DNA from: Mariprofundus sp.
GTDB taxonomy: Bacteria; Pseudomonadota; Zetaproteobacteria; Mariprofundales; Mariprofundaceae
Length of the DNA: 33,314 nt
Direction: 5' to 3'
NCBI GenBank assembly: GCA_030950555.1
Contig: JAUZRH010000180.1
Span: forward strand, 1-33,314
In this document: piece by piece, positions 12,722 through 26,115 of the stretch
Layout of the letters: every line of letters starts with the position of its first letter
Numbering within the stretch: the first letter of the stretch is position 1
The notes under the pieces: generated by a model
Seen by the model: only the letters and a program-made list of their open reading frames with translations
Databases searched by the model: none
What the model was told of the DNA's origin: nothing
Translations under genes and position numbers: made by a program

Positions 12722-14128
12722 ATGAGCGTTGTTAAAGAGAGTCATGCTTTGACGATTCTACTTGTTGCGAATGATCTGGAAAATATTGATTTTTTGCGAA
12801 CGACGCTTGCATCGCTTTATACGCTCAATGTGGTCACCCATGGTGACAGAGCACTGCGTATCTGCGGTGCTATTGATCCACCGAGCTTGGTGTTGCTGGA
12901 TGTAATGGTGGAGGGCGTAGATGGCTATGAAATATGCCGAACGCTAAAATCAGACCCTTGTACTAAAAATATTCCTGTTATTTTTGTCACCTCTAAGGGT
13001 AATATTTATGATGAACTGCTTGGCTTTCAGGTGGGAGCCGTGGATTTTATCCATATGCCGATTAACGCGGCGGTGATGCTTGCTCGAGTGCAGGCCCATA
13101 TGAAGTTAAGTAAGACACTTTGCAAGTTGGCGTCGGCCCATCATTTTATGCGTGAAACATTTGGTCGCTACCTCTCTGATGAAGTGGTGACGGCCTTGGT
13201 AGATACGCCAGATGGTTTGCGCTTGGGTGGTGACAAGCGTGAATTGACTATCGTGATTTCAGATCTGAGAGGGTTTACCTCAATATCAGAGCGGTTAAGT
13301 GCCGAAATAGTCGTTGATATGCTTAATATCTACCTAGATGAGATGACATCGGTCATTCAAAAACACTTAGGTACGATCAATGAATTTATTGGTGATGCTA
13401 TTTTGGTTGTTTTTGGAGCACCCGTAGGGCGGCAAGATGATGCGATGCGAGCTGTCTGTTGTGCTGTAGAGATGCAGTTGATGATGGAAAAAGTGAATAG
13501 TCGTTATCAGGAGAAGGGCTATCCGCAAGTAAAAATGGGCATTGGTATTAATACAGGCAGTGCAATTGTTGGTAATATAGGCTCGGCTAAGAGAAGTAAA
13601 TATGCGGTTGTTGGCATGGTTGTGAATTTAGCCTCTCGCATTGAATCTTATACCATTGGCGGGCAGATATTAATTTCTGAAAGGACACGCATTTGTTGTA
13701 AACTACCGCTTCGTATTGATGATGAGATTAAAGTGATGCCCAAAGGCGTTCATACTGATGTTACGCTGTATGAAATTGGTGGGGTTTATGGTGAGCAGCC
13801 ACTGATGTTGGCGGAGAAAATATCTGAGCCTTTGGTTGAGCTGATAACACCGATCGATGTGCAAATATCTTTACTTGAAGGGAAATTTTCACGCGATACT
13901 TTTCCTGGCACGATTTTGCGTTTGAATCACCTTGAATTTGAGCTGGCCTTGGAGCAAGACTGCGCGACCTTGAGTAGTTTAAAAATACTGCTGCCAGGTT
14001 GTTCTGCGGGTTGCTATGTAAAGGTGGTGCGTACTGTTTCAGTTGAACCCATTATTGTTCAGGCATCGATTACGTATATGTCGGAAGTGGTGAAAAGTAT
14101 GCTGCATAAGTGGCTGCTAAACCCTTGA
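12722..14128 (+). CDS. Receiver-domain class III nucleotide cyclase with atypical specificity residues
   Basis: A 468-residue signalling protein with no membrane segment. Residues about 10-128 are a response-regulator receiver with the phospho-acceptor D60 in VLLDVM and T90. The usual acidic pair is A16-N17 (D18 follows) and the usual lysine near the domain end is M112, so phosphorylation may be impaired. About 145-315 form a class III cyclase with metal aspartates D181 (VISDLRGFT) and D225 (FIGDAILVVFGAP), N302 and transition-state R306. The two purine-specifying positions are E221 and A295, where adenylate cyclases of this group normally have lysine and threonine. Residues about 385-468 form a beta-rich tail, possibly PilZ-like but lacking a clear RxxxR motif. 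The product, cAMP or cGMP, cannot be assigned. Confidence 0.88.
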   Translation: MSVVKESHALTILLVANDLENIDFLRTTLASLYTLNVVTHGDRALRICGAIDPPSLVLLDVMVEGVDGYEICRTLKSDPCTKNIPVIFVTSKGNIYDELLGFQVGAVDFIHMPINAAVMLARVQAHMKLSKTLCKLASAHHFMRETFGRYLSDEVVTALVDTPDGLRLGGDKRELTIVISDLRGFTSISERLSAEIVVDMLNIYLDEMTSVIQKHLGTINEFIGDAILVVFGAPVGRQDDAMRAVCCAVEMQLMMEKVNSRYQEKGYPQVKMGIGINTGSAIVGNIGSAKRSKYAVVGMVVNLASRIESYTIGGQILISERTRICCKLPLRIDDEIKVMPKGVHTDVTLYEIGGVYGEQPLMLAEKISEPLVELITPIDVQISLLEGKFSRDTFPGTILRLNHLEFELALEQDCATLSSLKILLPGCSAGCYVKVVRTVSVEPIIVQASITYMSEVVKSMLHKWLLNP

Positions 14129-14204
14129 TAGAAGTTTTGCCGCCAACACGATTGGCGCTCTGATCCGCTTTCTCTACCTGATCGGGCGCCGTAGGCGGCG
14201 TGGA

Positions 14205-14235
14205 ATGCACTTGCAGAACAAAGCTGCAAGTGCAT
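14205..14235 (+). other. Perfect 12-bp stem-loop downstream of the cyclase gene
   Basis: ATGCACTTGCAG (14205-14216) and CTGCAAGTGCAT (14224-14235) pair exactly around the 7-base loop AACAAAG. A short T-run (TGGTTTTTGG) follows about 10 bases later, so this could act as a weak terminator for the plus-strand operon. It sits 27 bases left of repeat copy B, between convergent transcription units. Confidence 0.55.
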
Positions 14236-14262
14236 GAGCATAATGGTTTTTGGGGTAGGACT

Positions 14263-14456
14263 TTAGGGCCGCGGAAAGAATAAATCATCCACGTGCTGGT
14301 CTATAAGTCCGCCTTCTGCGTTGCCACAGAGTTGCTACTAAAGGCAGTAGGCTATCGCGCCCATTCAGGGCTTGCTTATGCGCTTGATTTGGCGCCTTGA
14401 ATCCAACTACTATACTGCGCATAATCTGGATACTTTATTCTTTCCGTGGCCCCTAA
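14263..14456. repeat. MITE-like dispersed repeat, copy B
   Basis: A full 194-base copy. The left end reads TTAGGGCCGCGGAAAGAATA and the right end, reverse complemented, reads TTAGGGGCCACGGAAAGAAT, giving imperfect terminal inverted repeats of roughly 22 bases. By eye it is about 92% identical to copy D at 26678 and has the same orientation. The interior carries the short GCCC-ATTCA-GGGC hairpin and no open frame of note. It lies between the convergent cyclase and purM genes. Confidence 0.9.
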
Positions 14457-14536
14457 GGCGATGACACTTCAAACATATAAAAACTGGCACGTCGAGTTAT
14501 AAAATATGTCTTTATGGTGAACATAAGCTTCATCAA

Positions 14537-15589
14537 CTAATCGACCAGCGTAACCACTTCTCCATCTACAACATGAATACGCCCCATACGATAGACCGTT
14601 TCGCCAGCACCGCCTAACACAGCTTCTGCTTTTAGTGCTTCTGCTTCCGACAAGACAACCACAAAACCAATGCCCATATTAAATGTGCGATAACATTCCT
14701 GCTTTTCCACATCGGCAAAATTCAGCAGATATTCAAATACTGGCGGCACAGGCCATGAGGAGATATCTACTGTTGCAGCCAGCCCTTCAGGAAGAATACG
14801 TTCAATATTATCAAACATGCCGCCACCTGTAATATGGGAATAGCCATGCACGTCAATACCCTCTTTGAGCATCGCTTTAACAGCTGGTACATAGAGCCTA
14901 GTTGGCGCCAATACCGCATCAATCGCTGCTGAGCCATCAGCAAGCAGATCGTTTGCGATATCCGCATCCCCCACTTCAATCAGCTTACGGATCAGAGAGA
15001 AACCGTTGGAGTGCGGCCCACTTGAGGCTAGTCCTAACATCACATCACCATCAGAGATGCTCGTTCCATCAACAATTGCAGCGCGATCCACAACACCGAC
15101 GGAAAAACCACCAATATCATAGTGACCCGGTGCATACATACCCGGCATCTCTGCGGTTTCGCCACCAATCAGAGCACAGTCACAGATACGACAGGCTTCA
15201 GCAATTCCTTCCACAACAGCCGCCATGGTTTCATTATCCAACTTGCCGCTTGCCAAGTAATCAAGAAAAAAGAGCGGTTCAGCGGCTTGTGCTGCCATAT
15301 CATTAACACACATAGCAACCGCATCAATACCGGCAACATGGGGCCGTCCATGCTGTTGCAGTAGGAGTAATTTTGTCCCTACTCCATCAGTAGCGGCCAC
15401 GAGAACCGGCTCCTGCATATGTTTGAAATTAGCACTGAACAGGCCACCAAAACCGCCCAAGCCGCCAATCACTTCAGGGCGGCTTGTCGATGCAACAGCT
15501 TGTTTAATGCGACCAACAAAGGCATTGCCAGCATCAATGCTAACGCCTGCATCGGCATAGGTGAGGGTAGGTTTATTATTTTTTGTCAC
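14537..15589 (-). CDS. purM: Phosphoribosylformylglycinamidine cyclo-ligase (AIR synthetase)
   Basis: Fifth step of de novo purine synthesis: ATP-dependent ring closure of FGAM to AIR. Signature sequences are LTYADAGVSIDAGNAFVGRI, PEVIGGLGGFGGLF, VAATDGVGTKLLL, MCVNDMAAQAAEPLFFLDY, LIGGETAEMPGMY, SSGPHSNGFSLIRK, APTRLYV and HITGGGMFDNI. I start at GTG 15589, which has AGGA six bases upstream and gives 350 residues, matching the E. coli N-terminus. The frame is open 27 codons further upstream but that part overlaps gyrB and has no similarity. It lies 10 bases after the gyrB stop, an unusual place; purM is normally beside purN. Confidence 0.94.
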   Translation of the reverse strand: MTKNNKPTLTYADAGVSIDAGNAFVGRIKQAVASTSRPEVIGGLGGFGGLFSANFKHMQEPVLVAATDGVGTKLLLLQQHGRPHVAGIDAVAMCVNDMAAQAAEPLFFLDYLASGKLDNETMAAVVEGIAEACRICDCALIGGETAEMPGMYAPGHYDIGGFSVGVVDRAAIVDGTSISDGDVMLGLASSGPHSNGFSLIRKLIEVGDADIANDLLADGSAAIDAVLAPTRLYVPAVKAMLKEGIDVHGYSHITGGGMFDNIERILPEGLAATVDISSWPVPPVFEYLLNFADVEKQECYRTFNMGIGFVVVLSEAEALKAEAVLGGAGETVYRMGRIHVVDGEVVTLVD

Positions 15590-19197: not shown

Positions 19198-20298
19198 CTA
19201 AATCCGCATGGGCATAATAACATAGCGTGATCTGTGGCTATCTTCACCATGCACCAAAATAGGAGAAAGCTCATCCTTGAGTTCCATACATATAGAGTCT
19301 GTATGAATAACACTTAAAACGTCACGTAGATAACGGCCATTAAAACCAATCGCAATCTCCTGACCTGTGTAGTCTGCATCTATACGCTCGTCTGATTCCT
19401 CTTGCTCACTGTTTTGGGCGGAGATATCTACGCCTTTCTCACTAAAAATAAGGCGTATATCATGGGTAAATTCATTGGCTACGATCATATTGCGACGTAG
19501 TACCTGATCCAGAACCGTCCGCTCCATTTTTGCAGTATCCGGATTATCGACAGGAATCACATCCTGATAGACCGGAAAACGAGCATCAATCAGCTTGGAT
19601 GTGAGTGTATTGGCGCCGGCCATCAGACGAATTTGACTATCATTGATTAATAATTCCACATCACCCTGATGTTCATCACATAATTTACGCATCTCAACCA
19701 CAGCTTTTCTCGGTACAATACAAGAACCTTTGCGAGCCACCTGTTCTAATTGATATTCTGACAGAGCCAAACGATGGCCATCAGTGGTTACCAAACGAAT
19801 GTTCTGCTCCTCATCCAGTTCAAATAGTGTGCCTGTTAAATATTTTCTTGTTTCATCTGTGGACATGGCAAAAGAAGTTGCACCAATCATCTCAGCAAGG
19901 GCTGTAGCGGGCAAAATAACCGAAGTGGCATTCTCCTGATCTGTCATTGCCGGATATGCTTCAGCAGATTGTGTAATCACTTTAAATCGAGAACGTCCGC
20001 TGGCAATCATAATAAAACCATCACCTGTAGTCAGTGAAACATCAAGATTTTGATCTAACTCTTTAATAATATCGAAGAGCTTTTTAGCTGATACAGTAAT
20101 TGAACCACTCTCTTTTACGGTTCCTTCAATACGACTGCAAATCCCCACTTCCAGATCAGTGGCTGTCATGCGCAAACTGTCCTCATTTGTTTCTATCAAA
20201 ACATTGGCTAAAATGGGAATGGTGTGTCTCTTCTCAACAATACTTTGGCAACGCTGCACCAACTGTAATAGCGGGGTCCTGGATAAAGTTACTTTCAT
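19198..20298 (-). CDS. dnaN: DNA polymerase III beta sliding clamp
   Basis: Ring-shaped processivity clamp that tethers DNA polymerases to template. The 366 residues are the standard length. They start MKVTLSRTPLLQLVQRCQSI and show KRHTIPILANVLIE, RFKVITQSAEAYPAM, LVTTDGHRLALSEY, FPVYQDVIPVD, AIGFNGRYLRDVL and the C-terminal YVIMPMRI, matching the family throughout. A double AGGA ribosome site precedes the ATG. recF follows after five bases. A 263-base gap with DnaA-box-like sites separates it from dnaA, so dnaN may have its own promoter there. Confidence 0.97.
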   Translation of the reverse strand: MKVTLSRTPLLQLVQRCQSIVEKRHTIPILANVLIETNEDSLRMTATDLEVGICSRIEGTVKESGSITVSAKKLFDIIKELDQNLDVSLTTGDGFIMIASGRSRFKVITQSAEAYPAMTDQENATSVILPATALAEMIGATSFAMSTDETRKYLTGTLFELDEEQNIRLVTTDGHRLALSEYQLEQVARKGSCIVPRKAVVEMRKLCDEHQGDVELLINDSQIRLMAGANTLTSKLIDARFPVYQDVIPVDNPDTAKMERTVLDQVLRRNMIVANEFTHDIRLIFSEKGVDISAQNSEQEESDERIDADYTGQEIAIGFNGRYLRDVLSVIHTDSICMELKDELSPILVHGEDSHRSRYVIMPMRI

Positions 20299-20324
20299 TC
20301 CTAATTCCTTTTATTAAGCTTTTT

Positions 20325-20540
20325 TTAAAAAATCATCGTCATCATAGGGGGTGTGGATAGTGTGGATAACGCTATTAGCTTATGAAATAATGAGCTTTTT
20401 TCTTTTTTCAGCCTGTGTAATCGCTACATAATAAACTGTGTGTAAGATGGGTATAAATCATTATCAGCCGGATAGCTTAGCAATATTTATAGTTATACTC
20501 AAATAATCCACAACTGTTCAGCCCCTGTTTACACAAGATT
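20325..20540. repeat. Origin-like unit 1, between dnaA and dnaN, with DnaA boxes
   Basis: The unit opens with ATCATCGTCATCATAGG and two abutting 9-mers, TGTGGATAG (20352-20360) and TGTGGATAA (20361-20369). The second is a perfect reverse-complement DnaA box and the first differs by one base. Later come a GTGTAAGATGGGTATAAAT block and a third block at 20491-20537 (AGTTATACTCAAATAATCCACA, split here as AGTTATACTC plus AAATAATCCACA). The same order recurs in units 2 and 3. An AT-rich stretch with a T-run at about 20395-20410 lies after the box pair. DnaA boxes between dnaA and dnaN can serve autoregulation or a bipartite origin. Confidence 0.7.
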
Positions 20541-20561
20541 TTGAGCCAACCAAGTCACTCT

Positions 20562-21932
20562 TTAGCGTTTTAACTGCGCTATAATACGACTAACTTCTTC
20601 ATTAAAATCTTCATCATCATTTCGCATTTTTGCAATTTTTCGAACAGCATAGAGAATGGTCGTATGATCTCTACCGCCAAAACGAGCACCTATTTCCGGT
20701 AGTGAGAGCGTGGTCAGTTCTTTACTAGCATACATCGCTATTTGACGAGGAAAAGCAATGGTACGACTGCGCTTACTAGAGGTCATTTCACGAATATTGA
20801 TATTATAGTAAGCTGCAATCTGTTTCTGAATATCTTCAATAGAAATAGCACGTAGCTCTTCATGCAGCAGATCACGCAATACGTGGCGAGCAAAAGTTAC
20901 ATCAATGGTACGCCCGGTAAGCGTTGCATGCGCAGTTAAACGCGTTAAAGCCCCTTCAAGTTCACGTACGTTATTGGTAATTCTCGTCGCTAACAGATTT
21001 GCCACATCCTGATCCATATCAACACCAGCTAACTCCGCCTTACTTGAAAGAATGGCTAGCCTTGTTTCTAAATCAGGCGGCTGAATATCTGCAACCAAAC
21101 CCCAATTAAAGCGAGAACGTAAGCGTTCCATCAAGTTAGTCAGGTCTCTTGGACTGCGGTCAGAGGTAAGAATAATCTGCTTTTTCAATTCATACAGTGC
21201 ATTAAATGTATGAAAAAACTCTTCCTGGGTACGATCTTTACCAGCAATAAATTGGATATCATCAATAATCAGTATATCTACTTGTCTATATTGATTACGA
21301 AAATGATCAGTGGAACCATTGCGAATAGCCTGAATCAACTCATTGGTAAAACGTTCACCTGTTCGGTAAGCGATACGATAACTATTTTTTGCGATGAGGG
21401 TATTGGCAACAGCATTAATCAGATGCGTTTTTCCCAGTCCAACACCACCATAGAGATAGAGTGGATTATAAATAGCACCTGGTTTTTCCGCCACGGCCTG
21501 CGCTGCAGCATGACAAAACTCATTACCTGAACCGACAACAAAATTTTCAAACGTAAATCGAGGATCAATAAACCCATCGACCAAGGAAGCTTCAATAACG
21601 ACGGCCTCATCAGATTTACGGCTCTCTTGTTGGGCAAGGCTACTGTCTACAATATAAGAAATTTCAACATCAGCTTGTGTGTACTCATGGGCTAATTCAA
21701 GAATTCTTTTGGCATAACGGCTTTTAAGACCATCAAGAAAGAAATTACTCGCAACAGAAAGCGTTAATTTTTTTCCTTCTTCTTTGTTCACAATAGGCGC
21801 GACCCAGGCATCAAAACTGGATCCCGGAAGCTCATCTTTTAAATGGCTTGAAATATGTTTCCATATTGGTGTTCTATTTTCAATCGTCATCGGCTGAATA
21901 GTACAGTCTTGGCGATTATCATCCAGTTCCAT
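20562..21932 (-). CDS. dnaA: Chromosomal replication initiator protein DnaA
   Basis: AAA+ ATPase that binds DnaA boxes, melts oriC and loads the helicase. Domain I is at the N-terminus (WKHISSHLKDELPGSSFDAW), followed by a short linker. The AAA+ domain carries Walker A YGGVGLGKTHLINAV and Walker B ILIIDDIQFIAGK. The C-terminal box-binding domain carries REMTSSKRSRTIAFPRQIAM and the signature FGGRDHTTILYAV. From ATG 21932 it has 456 residues; a GTG one codon earlier is also possible. The ribosome site is weak. It lies between origin-like units 1 and 2, consistent with self-regulation through DnaA boxes. Confidence 0.97.
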   Translation of the reverse strand: MELDDNRQDCTIQPMTIENRTPIWKHISSHLKDELPGSSFDAWVAPIVNKEEGKKLTLSVASNFFLDGLKSRYAKRILELAHEYTQADVEISYIVDSSLAQQESRKSDEAVVIEASLVDGFIDPRFTFENFVVGSGNEFCHAAAQAVAEKPGAIYNPLYLYGGVGLGKTHLINAVANTLIAKNSYRIAYRTGERFTNELIQAIRNGSTDHFRNQYRQVDILIIDDIQFIAGKDRTQEEFFHTFNALYELKKQIILTSDRSPRDLTNLMERLRSRFNWGLVADIQPPDLETRLAILSSKAELAGVDMDQDVANLLATRITNNVRELEGALTRLTAHATLTGRTIDVTFARHVLRDLLHEELRAISIEDIQKQIAAYYNINIREMTSSKRSRTIAFPRQIAMYASKELTTLSLPEIGARFGGRDHTTILYAVRKIAKMRNDDEDFNEEVSRIIAQLKR

Positions 21933-22004
21933 CACTAAAAGGCTCTCTAGGCTGCTTAATTTTACGCTCTTGGCGGTTCTTTTACTTCTTTATAAATCTC
22001 TATA

Positions 22005-22220
22005 TTTCAAAATTCATCGTCATCATAGGTGCTGTGGATAGTGTGGATAAGTCATTTATTTGATGCTGTTATTACTTTTAAAGCTCACCCAGGATGTGAG
22101 TAAGCCAGCTGCAATGTTGTGTAGTAAGCGGGTATAATATGCAACCACCTGCCAATCACTGCTCATAATCAAAGTTATACGCAATTCATGCACAGTTGAT
22201 TGTGGGTGCTATACACAGCT
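22005..22220. repeat. Origin-like unit 2, upstream of dnaA, candidate oriC
   Basis: Same orientation and block order as unit 1. It has TTCATCGTCATCATAGG, the abutting 9-mers TGTGGATAG (22033-22041) and TGTGGATAA (22042-22050), then TGTGAGTAA, a TTGTGTAGTAAGCGGGTATA block near 22120, and a third block at 22173-22217 starting AGTTATACGCAATTCATGC and ending GCTATACACA. The last contains TTATACGCA, TCATGCACA and CTATACACA, all near-matches to the DnaA box. The position directly upstream of dnaA is the usual site of oriC. Confidence 0.75.
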
Positions 22221-23010
22221 TTATTCTGCACGATCAAGCATGCGCCAAATCATTCACCGCAAAGCAAGACCGCACTGAATAATTCGATAATCTGGAAATA
22301 ATTTGGTCTATAGCTAAATCCGTCTTAGCCAAAGGCAGGTTTTCCTTTTAAGGTGGGGCAACAATGATGGTATAGTGATTCAAGCTTGAAAATGTCTTTG
22401 CTCGTCATTGCCTCGAAGGCGCTTGAGCGGCGTTCATGCCACGCGATAGGGTTAGCAAAACAAACCATTTTTCTTGGTTTGTTTCGTCATCACTGAGTAT
22501 TTTATATGGTCAGCCCAAATGCTTCTATGCCGCCATCCCCGAGTGCTTTAATCGGGGATCCACTGAGTGCAGAAGCATGGGAGGCGTGCCTAAGTCGGCT
22601 TATGCTTAACTCAGTACTCGTGTCTTATTAGAAGTTCTGCGGGACTAAAGTCCCATCCCCAAGAAGAGAAAACAGAGCATTCCTTTGAAATGGATTCTCA
22701 TCTTCACGGGAATGACGGGCGTAACGCTTAACCCCCCAAACCATTAAGGTCAGAAGTGTGTGAAATGTTATTGAAGCATACTGCCTTCGCCTGCCAGCTA
22801 TGATCTTTGGGGGTGCGACTAAAGTCGCGCAGCAATATCCGAGTGTATGCGTGACCACGCGACTTCGACGCAACTCTGGCTGGAATGAAGGGTATGGTAC
22901 TGCGTATGCTGAACGAGACATTGGGAATGCTCCGGAGTGGGGGAATTTATTTGCCATTGATGGATTTTATAAGTGTTTCTTTAGCCTTTATGATTTTGTA
23001 ACTTATCTTA
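22221..23010. other. Gene-free region with multiple stem-loops between origin-like units 2 and 3
   Basis: No convincing gene is present; the open frames at 22628-22957 and 22800-23027 resemble nothing and overlap palindromes. Structures include a 10-bp hairpin AAACAAACCA / TGGTTTGTTT (22458-22484) and a nested stem-loop at 22519-22578. Two short palindromes of one type occur, GGGACT-AA-AGTCCC (22641-22654) and GCGACT-AA-AGTCGC (22815-22828). A TTCACGGGAATGACGGGCG segment near 22696 resembles the common GGGAATGACG intergenic repeat. rpmH and rnpA, frequent neighbours of dnaA, are absent. Confidence 0.65.
22519..22578. repeat. Nested stem-loop (60 bases)
   Basis: The outer stem pairs ATGCTTCT (22519-22526) with AGAAGCAT (22571-22578). 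The inner stem pairs ATCCCCGA (22535-22542) with TCGGGGAT (22552-22559) around GTGCTTTAA. The inner part resembles the widespread ATCCCCG palindromic repeats of bacterial intergenic DNA. Function is unknown; a structured RNA or a repeat remnant are both possible. Confidence 0.6.
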
Positions 23011-23228
23011 TTTTTCAAAATTCATAGTCATCATAGGTGCTGTGGATAGTGTGGATAAGTGCTTATTTTGTTTGCCTGATTGATCTAAGCAGCCTTTTAT
23101 CATGTGAGTAATGAATCTGGAATGTTGTGGAGTAAGTAGGTATAATTGTAGGCTCTTGTTGTGTGGATGCGTTTATTCATAGTTATACGCAATTCATCCA
23201 CAGTTGATCATGGGTGCTATACACATCT
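23011..23228. repeat. Origin-like unit 3, about 1 kb upstream of dnaA
   Basis: Closest relative of unit 2. It has TTCATAGTCATCATAGGTGC, the 9-mers TGTGGATAG (23041-23049) and TGTGGATAA (23050-23058), then ATGTGAGTAA, a TTGTGGAGTAAGTAGGTATA block near 23125, and the third block at 23181-23225. That block differs from unit 2 at only a few bases and contains TCATCCACA, closer to a DnaA box than the unit 2 version. An extra TGTGGATGC is at 23161. No gene lies inside. Confidence 0.75.
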
Positions 23229-23347
23229 TACCCAAGATCAGATATTGTCATGCGGCGTATGCCGTAAGCTTACGATTCTCCTGACATTCTCGGACAGCTT
23301 CCTAGAAACTCGGTGTTCCAGTTTTTATATTTTGAAGTGTCATCGCT

Positions 23348-23514
23348 TTAGGGCCTCGGAAATAATAAAACATCCAAAAGGTGCGCAGGATAGAAGTTTG
23401 GATTCAAGGCGCAGAAACAGGCGCATAGCTGGGACTATGTAACTGTTTCTGCAACGTAGAAGGCGAGCTTATAGACCAGTAGACTTGGATGTTTTATTAT
23501 TTCCGCGGCCCTAA
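23348..23514. repeat. MITE-like dispersed repeat, copy C (inverted, divergent interior)
   Basis: A 167-base copy with the best-preserved ends. The 30 bases at 23348-23377 and the reverse complement of 23485-23514 differ at one position, starting TTAGGGCC and running through CGGAAATAATAAAACATCC. Orientation is opposite to copies A, B and D. The GCGCAGGATAGAAG and GGATTCAAGGCGC blocks are kept. The central GGGCTTGCTTATGC part is replaced by a nested hairpin: GCAGAAACAG with CTGTTTCTGC, and inside it CATAG with CTATG. Confidence 0.88.
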
Positions 23515-23547
23515 GTCGGGAATCCACGCTGAAACGCTCTGCTATGT

Positions 23548-23563
23548 GCTCCCACGCAGGAGC
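23548..23563. repeat. Short palindrome of the common GGGAACG intergenic type
   Basis: GCTCC and GGAGC pair around CACGCA, followed by TTGGGAACG. This matches the widespread bacterial intergenic repeat with a CCCACGCAGGAGC core. It lies about 55 bases beyond the ccoI stop and has no T-run, so a terminator role is doubtful. Confidence 0.45.
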
Positions 23564-23619
23564 TTGGGAACGCGGAAAAATCAGCAAAATAGCTTTCTGC
23601 CACAAAACCTTAAAAGTAC

Positions 23620-26115
23620 TCAGCGGCGCGTATGACGGCGAATGAGTATGGCATTTCCTATGACTAGCAAAGAACTCAAGGGCATGGCAACAGCCGCAAA
23701 AACTGGCGTCACCCAGGCCGCCATTGCAGCGGGAACAAGCAGCAAATTATACGTTATAGATAGCATCAGATTCTGAGACACTGTTCTCATCGTTCGCTTT
23801 GCTAAATCCAATGACCAGCAGATTCTTTTTAAATCACTGCCCATCAATACAATATCTGAACATTCCATCGATAAATCAGTACCACTGCCCATCGCCATAC
23901 TCACATCAGCCTGAGCCAAACTAGGTGCATCGTTCAGACCATCCCCAACCATAAGGACATGCTCACCTAGCTTTTGTAGATTGATCACCTCAGCCACTTT
24001 ATCTTCAGGCAGTAGCTCGGCAACCACATGGATCCTTGCCGTTGTATGGCTTGCCAAGGTGTTCTTCATATAAAGAGCTGCTGCCTGCGAATCACCGGTC
24101 AATAGGGTGATACCGATCTCTCTTTTTGCAAGTTCAGTAATCAGTTGAGCTGCCCCTTGGCGCAATTGATCTTCAATATGCAAAAGACCCAGTAGCACCC
24201 CGTCAACAGCCACAAAGACCGCTGAACCCATTTCAGCCTCAATTCTGCCATAGGCATGATAAAGATCAGCAGCAATAAGCACGCCCTGTTGCTTCATCAA
24301 CTTTTCATTGCCTACCCAAACGTCGCACGCTTTCGCCCCATCCTTTACCCGCGCCCTCACCCCCAATCCAGCTAACATCTGTTGATCGGAACTATCCATA
24401 AAAGACAAGCCTTCTGACTCAAGCGACGCACAAATAGCCTTGGCAATTGGATGGGTGTAATTTCGCTCCACGGCTCCTGCTAGCATCAGCAGGCGCTCGT
24501 TATCCTCACTACCAATAAACGCAGAAACGCGCATGCAGCCCTCGGTAAGCGTGCCTGTTTTATCGAGCACAACATGCGTAACCCTTGCCAATTTTTCCCA
24601 TGCTTCGCCATCACGCACCAGCACGCCGCTCCTTGCTGCAAAGCCAGCACTCACAGCCATAGCCATGGGTGTTGCCAAGCCCAGCGCACAGGGACAGGTG
24701 ATAATCAGCACAGCCGTCGCAGCCAATAATGCGGCATGAAAATCGTAATAAAACCACCAATAGCAGAGGGTCAGAGATGAGAGCAGTAGCGTTGTCGCCA
24801 CAAACCACGGCACAATTCGGTCAGTTAAGCGCTGCACTGCGGCTTTAGAACCCTGCGCTGACTCTACCAGCTGAACAATACGCGCCAACACCGTAGCAGC
24901 CCCCATCTGCTGCACCTGCATCAGAAGCACCCCTTCACCATTCACCGTGCCACCTGCTAATTTATCACCTACAGTTTTATGTACGGGTCTTGATTCACCG
25001 GTAAGCATCGATTCATCGGTGTGAGAGTCACCAACCAGCACAAGACCATCTGCAGGTACTTTATCGCCCGGCTTTACACGCAGCTTATCACCGATCACCA
25101 GTTTTCTAACAGACACCCGCTGCTCGCTGCCATCAGGACATAAGCGCGTTGCCATCTTGGGCTGAAGTTCCAATAGACGCAGTGTTGCCGAAGAGGCACT
25201 TCCCTTGGCCATAGCTTCAAGGTAACGGCCGAGCAAAATCACGAATAGAAAGGTGACGACTGTATCAAAATAGACATGGTTTCCACCCAGATATGTTTGC
25301 CAGAAAGAATAACCATAGGTCGTCACTGCGCCTATCGCTATCGGCAGATCCATACTTAGATGACGATACCAGACGCCTCGTATTGCCGTCGTCAGGATCG
25401 TAGAACCACTATAAAAAAGTACCGGCGTCGCAATTGCAAAACTAATCCAGTGAAAAAAGTGGCGAAAGTCACTACTAATGCCCGAAAAAGCACCAGCGTA
25501 GAGAGCGATGGAGATCCACATCATATTCATCGCGCCAAAGCCGGCAAAGCCCAAGCGGAACAACAACTGCCTATGTAGTTTTTTTTGCAAGCCCTCAGCA
25601 TTTTCCAGATTAAAGGGGGTCGCGGCATAACCGAGCGCTGCCAAGCGTTGCAAAATATCAGGCAGCTCTACCTGTTCAGGGTTCCAACGCAAAAACAGGC
25701 GGTGATGTACCATATTCACTTCGCCCTGCAGTACACCCTCACACCCTGCTAGCCCCCTCTCAATCAGCCATACACAGGCTGCGCAATGAATCCCTTCAAC
25801 CATAAGCTGTGCTTGATAACTACCATCAGCGCCTTTTTTAACAAAATCCGCCTGCACCTCTTCTAAGGCGTACTGATCGACATCCGCGGGTACAGCAGGT
25901 GGCGGTGCAAGAGAAGCCTGCTGTTTTTCTATACGCTGATAAAAACTATCCAGACCTGCTTGATGAATAATCTGACAGACACTCAAGCAGCCTGAGCAAC
26001 AAAACAGCTTTTTTTCTGCATTAATCTCACCATAACATTGATTTGCACTACTAGCGGGTAGTCCGCAATGAAAGCAGTGCGCTGGAGAAGTGCCATCAGG
26101 CACGGCTTCTTTCAT
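23620..26115 (-). CDS. ccoI: Copper-translocating P-type ATPase for cbb3 oxidase assembly
   Basis: FixI/CcoI-type P1B ATPase of the inner membrane, needed to supply copper to the CuB site of cbb3 oxidase. Of 831 residues, the N-terminus has a cysteine-rich metal site (CFHCG, then CCSGC) and a heavy-metal-associated domain with GIHCAACVWL near residue 110. Membrane helices flank the transport motif CPCALGLATPMAM near 475. The phosphorylation motif DKTGTLTEG is near 517, TGES near 375 and the hinge GDGLNDAPSLAQAD near 722. It starts 12 bases after ccoH. The small ccoS gene that often follows is not seen downstream. Confidence 0.95.
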   Translation of the reverse strand: MKEAVPDGTSPAHCFHCGLPASSANQCYGEINAEKKLFCCSGCLSVCQIIHQAGLDSFYQRIEKQQASLAPPPAVPADVDQYALEEVQADFVKKGADGSYQAQLMVEGIHCAACVWLIERGLAGCEGVLQGEVNMVHHRLFLRWNPEQVELPDILQRLAALGYAATPFNLENAEGLQKKLHRQLLFRLGFAGFGAMNMMWISIALYAGAFSGISSDFRHFFHWISFAIATPVLFYSGSTILTTAIRGVWYRHLSMDLPIAIGAVTTYGYSFWQTYLGGNHVYFDTVVTFLFVILLGRYLEAMAKGSASSATLRLLELQPKMATRLCPDGSEQRVSVRKLVIGDKLRVKPGDKVPADGLVLVGDSHTDESMLTGESRPVHKTVGDKLAGGTVNGEGVLLMQVQQMGAATVLARIVQLVESAQGSKAAVQRLTDRIVPWFVATTLLLSSLTLCYWWFYYDFHAALLAATAVLIITCPCALGLATPMAMAVSAGFAARSGVLVRDGEAWEKLARVTHVVLDKTGTLTEGCMRVSAFIGSEDNERLLMLAGAVERNYTHPIAKAICASLESEGLSFMDSSDQQMLAGLGVRARVKDGAKACDVWVGNEKLMKQQGVLIAADLYHAYGRIEAEMGSAVFVAVDGVLLGLLHIEDQLRQGAAQLITELAKREIGITLLTGDSQAAALYMKNTLASHTTARIHVVAELLPEDKVAEVINLQKLGEHVLMVGDGLNDAPSLAQADVSMAMGSGTDLSMECSDIVLMGSDLKRICWSLDLAKRTMRTVSQNLMLSITYNLLLVPAAMAAWVTPVFAAVAMPLSSLLVIGNAILIRRHTRR

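Follow-up and report, generated by a model that had tools for sequence, protein, structure and literature searches.

The textbook view gives each bacterial chromosome one complete oriC. The DNA analyzed here (the window, 33,314 bp, which is contig C91 of a 2.58-Mb MAG) raises the question of why three origin-like units should stand around one dnaA gene. A preliminary description of the sequence had reported three units of the same orientation and block order, and had proposed that an ancestral oriC was duplicated, possibly with a division of labor between initiation and dnaA autoregulation. The coordinates, orientation and order of blocks proved correct to within a few bases: three units of about 211 bp lie on one strand, in a gyrB-recF-dnaN-dnaA gene order that is backed by NCBIfam equivalogs. 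The features of the locus are as follows.

19198-20298, minus strand: dnaN (TIGR00663, 317 bits versus a cut-off of 138).
20299-20328, plus strand: AT-rich leader of unit 1 (82% AT including adjoining bases; repeated left of the other units).
20329-20538, plus strand: unit 1, the apparent oriC module in the dnaA-dnaN gap (family profile E 2.9e-36; model R1 114 bits).
20333-20351, plus strand: unit 1 trinucleotide run and GC spacer TCATCGTCATCATAGGGGG, DnaA-trio-like.
20352-20369, minus strand: unit 1 abutting DnaA-box pair TTATCCACA CTATCCACA, facing the AT-rich side.
20437-20512, no strand assigned: unit 1 distal boxes TGTGTGTAA and TGGGTATAA and opposite-strand boxes TTATACTCA and TAATCCACA, in conserved columns.
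20562-21935, minus strand: dnaA (TIGR00362, 545 bits versus a cut-off of 344).
22010-22220, plus strand: unit 2, a complete second module (BLAST, family profile and genome-wide model).
22014-22032, plus strand: unit 2 trinucleotide run and GC spacer (0 mismatches to the single-unit consensus).
22033-22050, minus strand: unit 2 abutting DnaA-box pair.
22094-22217, no strand assigned: unit 2 further boxes, namely TGTGAGTAA, the degenerate pair TGTGTAGTAAGCGGGTATAA and opposite-strand TTATACGCA, TCATGCACA and CTATACACA.
22245-23005, no strand assigned: unit 2-unit 3 spacer, composed of dispersed repeats.
23018-23228, plus strand: unit 3, a complete third module (BLAST, family profile and genome-wide model).
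23022-23040, plus strand: unit 3 trinucleotide run and GC spacer TCATAGTCATCATAGGTGC.
23041-23058, minus strand: unit 3 abutting DnaA-box pair.
23102-23225, no strand assigned: unit 3 further boxes, including opposite-strand TTATACGCA, TCATCCACA and CTATACACA.

When unit 2 was compared by BLAST with its own whole genome, the only matches lay inside the window, namely the left block of unit 1 (E 7.3e-12) and, at 75% over 221 bp, unit 3 (E 1.8e-33). The 211 bp of units 2 and 3 align gap-free at an offset of exactly 1008 bp, with 149/211 positions identical, and unit 1, aligned with one single-base gap, shares 122/211 positions with unit 2 and 110/211 with unit 3. As first described, units 2 and 3 are most alike, and a tree joins them with 99% bootstrap support. 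The window genome is a fragmented MAG of 316 contigs, and such copies might reflect a chance likeness of unrelated DnaA-box clusters or an artefact of assembly. With the DnaA-box positions masked, 66/122 (units 2 and 3), 61/122 (units 1 and 2) and 48/122 (units 1 and 3) positions are identical, whereas the largest value from 5000 random placements in the window was 47. Hence, in all three pairs the likeness outside the boxes, which the preliminary description had asked to be checked by alignment, is greater than chance. It is concentrated in a 22-bp trinucleotide/AT block having 19-21/22 identical positions (null maximum 14). The copies are also non-identical and all on one contig, and multiple copies are found independently in the closed genome G001 and on long contigs of G002, G004, G008, G009, G010 and G012. 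We therefore consider chance or artefact scarcely credible as an explanation.

Read from the dnaN side, the module begins with a pyrimidine/AT-rich leader (74-84% AT), which is followed by the trinucleotide run TCATCATCATAGG, a short GC spacer and the abutting box pair TGTGGATAG-TGTGGATAA (boxes A and B), which faces the AT side. Beyond the pair lie a spacer of variable sequence and near-constant length, box C, the tandem pair D/E and, at the far end, boxes F, G and H in reversed orientation. From box A to box H, 51/51 family units measure 183-187 bp, and so rigid a module shows which oriC positions and spacings matter. Two blocks of the preliminary description were present and could be resolved further: its GTAAG...GGTATAA block is a degenerate tandem DnaA-box pair (family consensus TGTGgAcAg-aTGTGgATAA), and its right block comprises three boxes of opposite orientation. 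The sequence GGTATAAT was considered as a promoter and rejected; the family consensus at this position is a DnaA box (TGTGgATAA), and thus the resemblance to a -10 element is probably incidental. An Rfam search of 19900-24000 gave no match to an RNA element.

The AT-rich leader of about 30 bp at the left of the units is also part of the repeat. In unit 1 the core begins 30 bp before the dnaN start codon, and the leader, a predicted part of the unwinding region, overlaps the dnaN leader and ribosome-binding site. Some 30 bp to the left of the core stands a TACTxCCT-like motif, which is the dnaN ribosome-binding site at unit 1. It is kept at most of the extra units that no gene follows; owing to this persistence the motif may belong to the unwinding region.

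We applied to the module the criteria of the basal unwinding system (BUS): a DnaA-box, a spacer of up to 16 bp and DnaA-trios. The abutting boxes are oriented toward the trinucleotide run and the AT-rich region with a short spacer between, as in a BUS. In the 3' to 5' direction leading away from the boxes, a 4-nt spacer is followed by 3'-GAT ACT ACT (A/G)CT ..., with 3'-GAT ACT ACT GCT ACT-5' in unit 1; the 4-nt spacer to 3'-GAT-5' is found in most genus units, including 3/3 window units. The published DnaA-trio rule is NAN repeated at least three times (PMC8287927). About half of the genus units have such a run, and the best run in the window units is two. Three genomes of one more distant genus (G070, G072 and G073) have 3'-GAT GA(T/C), which is near the canonical DnaA-trio.

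Conservation of the module was examined with an iterated profile seeded with the three window units, which found a match in 39/39 dnaA loci examined. A genome-wide model found the unit in 22/23 genus genomes and, at the order level, 70/78 genomes matched it at E<=0.01. In almost every family genome examined, the dnaN-proximal unit lies approximately 30-40 bp ahead of the dnaN start, and thus the search of relatives suggested at the outset did recover the module. In G026, G051 and G032 the unit still precedes dnaN, though dnaA is on a different contig. Two genus relatives are single contigs (2,537,610 and 2,301,665 bp), and GC skew was sampled from the closed genome G001 and a large G004 contig. 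In G001 (sampled GC 51%) the skew is positive at 0.06-1.22 Mb and negative in most samples at 1.33-2.49 Mb, the exception being one sample of unusual GC at 2.35 Mb; the sign change at dnaA/dnaN places the origin switch there. The skew of G004 is broadly consistent around 0.96 Mb, with some local reversals. Given a DnaA-box cluster beside dnaA/dnaN, the skew switch (in G001 and broadly in G004) and the conservation in relatives, unit 1 appears to be the oriC module of the family (probably Mariprofundus, Zetaproteobacteria).

Within the window, GC skew tracks gene orientation and flips at a convergent gene pair near 14.3 kb (14100-14540); on the right side it is positive solely in the non-coding 22.0-23.5 kb. 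Window-local skew does not by itself mark an origin.

Full-length extra copies were found in 10/22 genus genomes having a unit (8/16 of those of high quality). G000 and G002 have three units, and G001, G004, G007, G008, G009, G010, G012 and G019 have two. In fragmented genomes these numbers are minima, because some contigs stop near dnaA and only the best candidates were scored. The top-scoring candidates in each genus genome included no full-length unit remote from dnaA, and the extra signals at G021:C67 and G016:C12 are weak partial matches. Carriage of the unit by a mobile element was rejected, as the genus units found are confined to dnaA/dnaN. Repeats do adjoin units 2 and 3: the spacer between them is several dispersed repeats patched together, which recur at dozens of genome sites, and a palindromic MITE-like element at 23348-23514 (about 167 bp with 30-nt terminal inverted repeats) has at least about 40 close copies in its own genome, many at contig ends.

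Other observations on the genomes surveyed are these. The multi-unit high-quality genus genomes (G000-G022) are larger (p 0.016, kinship uncorrected). Two G051 contigs (C3 and C8; L229 and L230) each have a dnaN-like gene behind an origin unit, either a duplicated dnaN-origin pair or a strain mixture. A dnaN-recF-gyrB contig like those of genus 1, with its own unit, occurs in the other-genus genome G034 (C193, L238) and is probably MAG contamination. G056 encodes a second DnaA (G056:C7:13-1293, 45% identical) that is either contamination or a paralogue.

The placement of the extra copies bears on the division of labor first proposed. Extras lie upstream of dnaA in G000, G004 and G007, the only genomes in which box clusters flank dnaA. 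In the window, the start of unit 2 lies about 74 bp ahead of the dnaA start codon, and the G004 and G007 units occupy the corresponding position. In the seven other multi-copy genus genomes (7/10) every copy is on the dnaN side, within an expanded dnaA-dnaN gap, and G026, of another genus, has two units ahead of dnaN. As most extras are downstream of dnaA, autoregulation of dnaA cannot be their general role, and a split between initiation and autoregulation fails as the general reason for extra copies. From its position, window unit 2 could possibly serve dnaA autoregulation.

Are the extra copies simply neutral duplications en route to loss? Copy number does vary among close relatives (one in G003, two in G001, G009 and G010), and the distances between copies vary even among sisters, as transient duplications would have it. 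We compared units within each genome by use of functional columns defined from single-unit genomes alone. Mismatch was 11-20% in functional columns versus 29-68% in spacers, in 14/14 comparisons (p 0.019 to 4e-12), and the 183-187 bp span was retained by 12/12 genus extras. Spacer divergence of as much as 68%, with functional columns staying at 11-20%, requires long-term purifying selection, and neutral persistence is thus very improbable. The extras, whose spacers have diverged while functional columns and box span were kept, are under selection rather than decaying. The trinucleotide block of the extras has 0.10 mismatches per column, versus 0.07 in their dnaN-proximal sisters, and boxes A/B of the extras have 0.14. 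As the block is conserved as well as the boxes, the extras retain the unwinding side of the module plus the binding side.

Trees were used to trace the history of the copies. Constraining all extras to one clade was rejected (delta lnL 119, AU p 1.7e-41). The upstream copies of G000, G004 and G007 cluster together (92-94), units 2 and 3 of G000 are a later split (99), and the extras of G012, of G008/G019, of G002 and of the G001/G009/G010 group look like further events. Rejection of a single clade of extras argues for repeated duplications or homogenisation and against one ancestral triplication; the extras would have arisen either by independent duplication or by homogenisation through gene conversion. 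Hence, of the duplication proposed in the preliminary description, a family oriC module that was duplicated and its extras selected survives, and a single event does not, given the rejected clade and the lineage-specific positions.

What are the extra copies selected for? They might be DnaA-binding regulatory platforms, with unit 1 as the sole origin. Such platforms could titrate DnaA, loop to unit 1 through DnaA-DnaA contacts (as oriC1-oriC2 do in H. pylori and B. subtilis) or, where upstream, control dnaA transcription. The dnaN-proximal copy has the highest score in 10/10 multi-copy genomes and is always the nearest to the family consensus, which suggests that unit 1 is primary and the extras somewhat relaxed or specialised. 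Some extras have altered boxes (G002_u2, G007_u2 and G008_u2) and, given the lower scores everywhere, may be specialists in binding only; these properties keep the regulatory role alive. It would also suit the three genomes in which extras flank dnaA, including the window with unit 2 so near the dnaA start, and in genus genomes lacking an upstream unit the 400 bp ahead of dnaA contain no DnaA-box cluster. However, binding or titration needs no trinucleotide block, AT-rich leader or rigid 183-187 bp span, all of which the extras keep, and most extras are not ahead of dnaA. We regard a purely regulatory role as possible and somewhat doubtful.

The retained unwinding block and rigid spacing lead us to favor over binding-only extras a compound origin, in which two or three complete modules are present and the dnaN-proximal one initiates mainly (a probability of roughly 0.55). 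Unit 1, just upstream of dnaN, would be the family oriC. DnaA would bind the abutting pair and the other boxes and, judging from the anatomy, a DnaA filament would be led across the trinucleotide run and into the leader, whose AT-rich DNA would then open. Units 2 and 3 would be later copies of the whole module, unwinding block included, that were selectively kept near dnaA, and every extra would most likely still build a DnaA complex able to open. The copies are all found within 3 kb, and firing at any of them would therefore replicate the rest passively; together they would form a single origin zone dominated by the dnaN-proximal copy, and the top score of this copy is consistent with such dominance. 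More tentatively, at slightly under even odds, we propose that the origin of this genus evolves by repeated duplication of a complete oriC module, giving two or three origins within 3 kb that are each competent to unwind independently and are all under selection.

One close known layout is the continuous dnaA-dnaN oriC with a BUS (B. subtilis incC). Its elements match in order and in orientation: box pair, short spacer containing GC, trinucleotide run, AT-rich stretch and dnaN. The likeness extends to the first triplet, 3'-GAT-5' in most genus units including those of the window (rule in PMC8287927). In contrast to the BUS, the triplets after the first mostly read 3'-ACT-5' and not NAN, and two or three copies of the entire module are present. 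The bipartite origins of B. subtilis, Helicobacter pylori and other Epsilonproteobacteria resemble G000, G004 and G007 in that box clusters flank dnaA. In described bipartite origins the DUE is in just one sub-region (PMC4285127; PMC5043019) and box patterns differ between sub-regions, whereas the sub-regions here are copies of one complete module, each with the trinucleotide block and leader retained. Closely related species of the family form a natural series with one, two or three copies of a rigid module, placed on one side of dnaA or on both. Origin redundancy and the way in which bipartite architecture arose become open to test.

We scored 75 dnaA loci of distant phyla for sequence common to both sides of dnaA and found no module repeated across the two sides. 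The sole strong case of sharing besides the genus controls (L122) was on inspection a dispersed palindromic repeat. Pseudomonas aeruginosa also has two candidate origins beside dnaA, two autonomously replicating regions cited in PMC4403523; the survey included two dnaA loci of Pseudomonas viridiflava, and neither was above shuffled sequence for side-to-side similarity. A search confined to the open-access literature gave no report of a repeated oriC module in Zetaproteobacteria. More than one oriC on a natural chromosome is known from the DU1 duplication of Mycobacterium bovis BCG Pasteur and the dnaA-dnaA locus of Acidaminococcus fermentans, and the reported multi-oriC cases are large duplications or engineered (PMC2448323; PMC4403523). 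In M. bovis BCG and A. fermentans whole gene blocks are duplicated, whereas here the origin module of roughly 240 bp is duplicated alone, in several species, and is retained as its spacers diverge.
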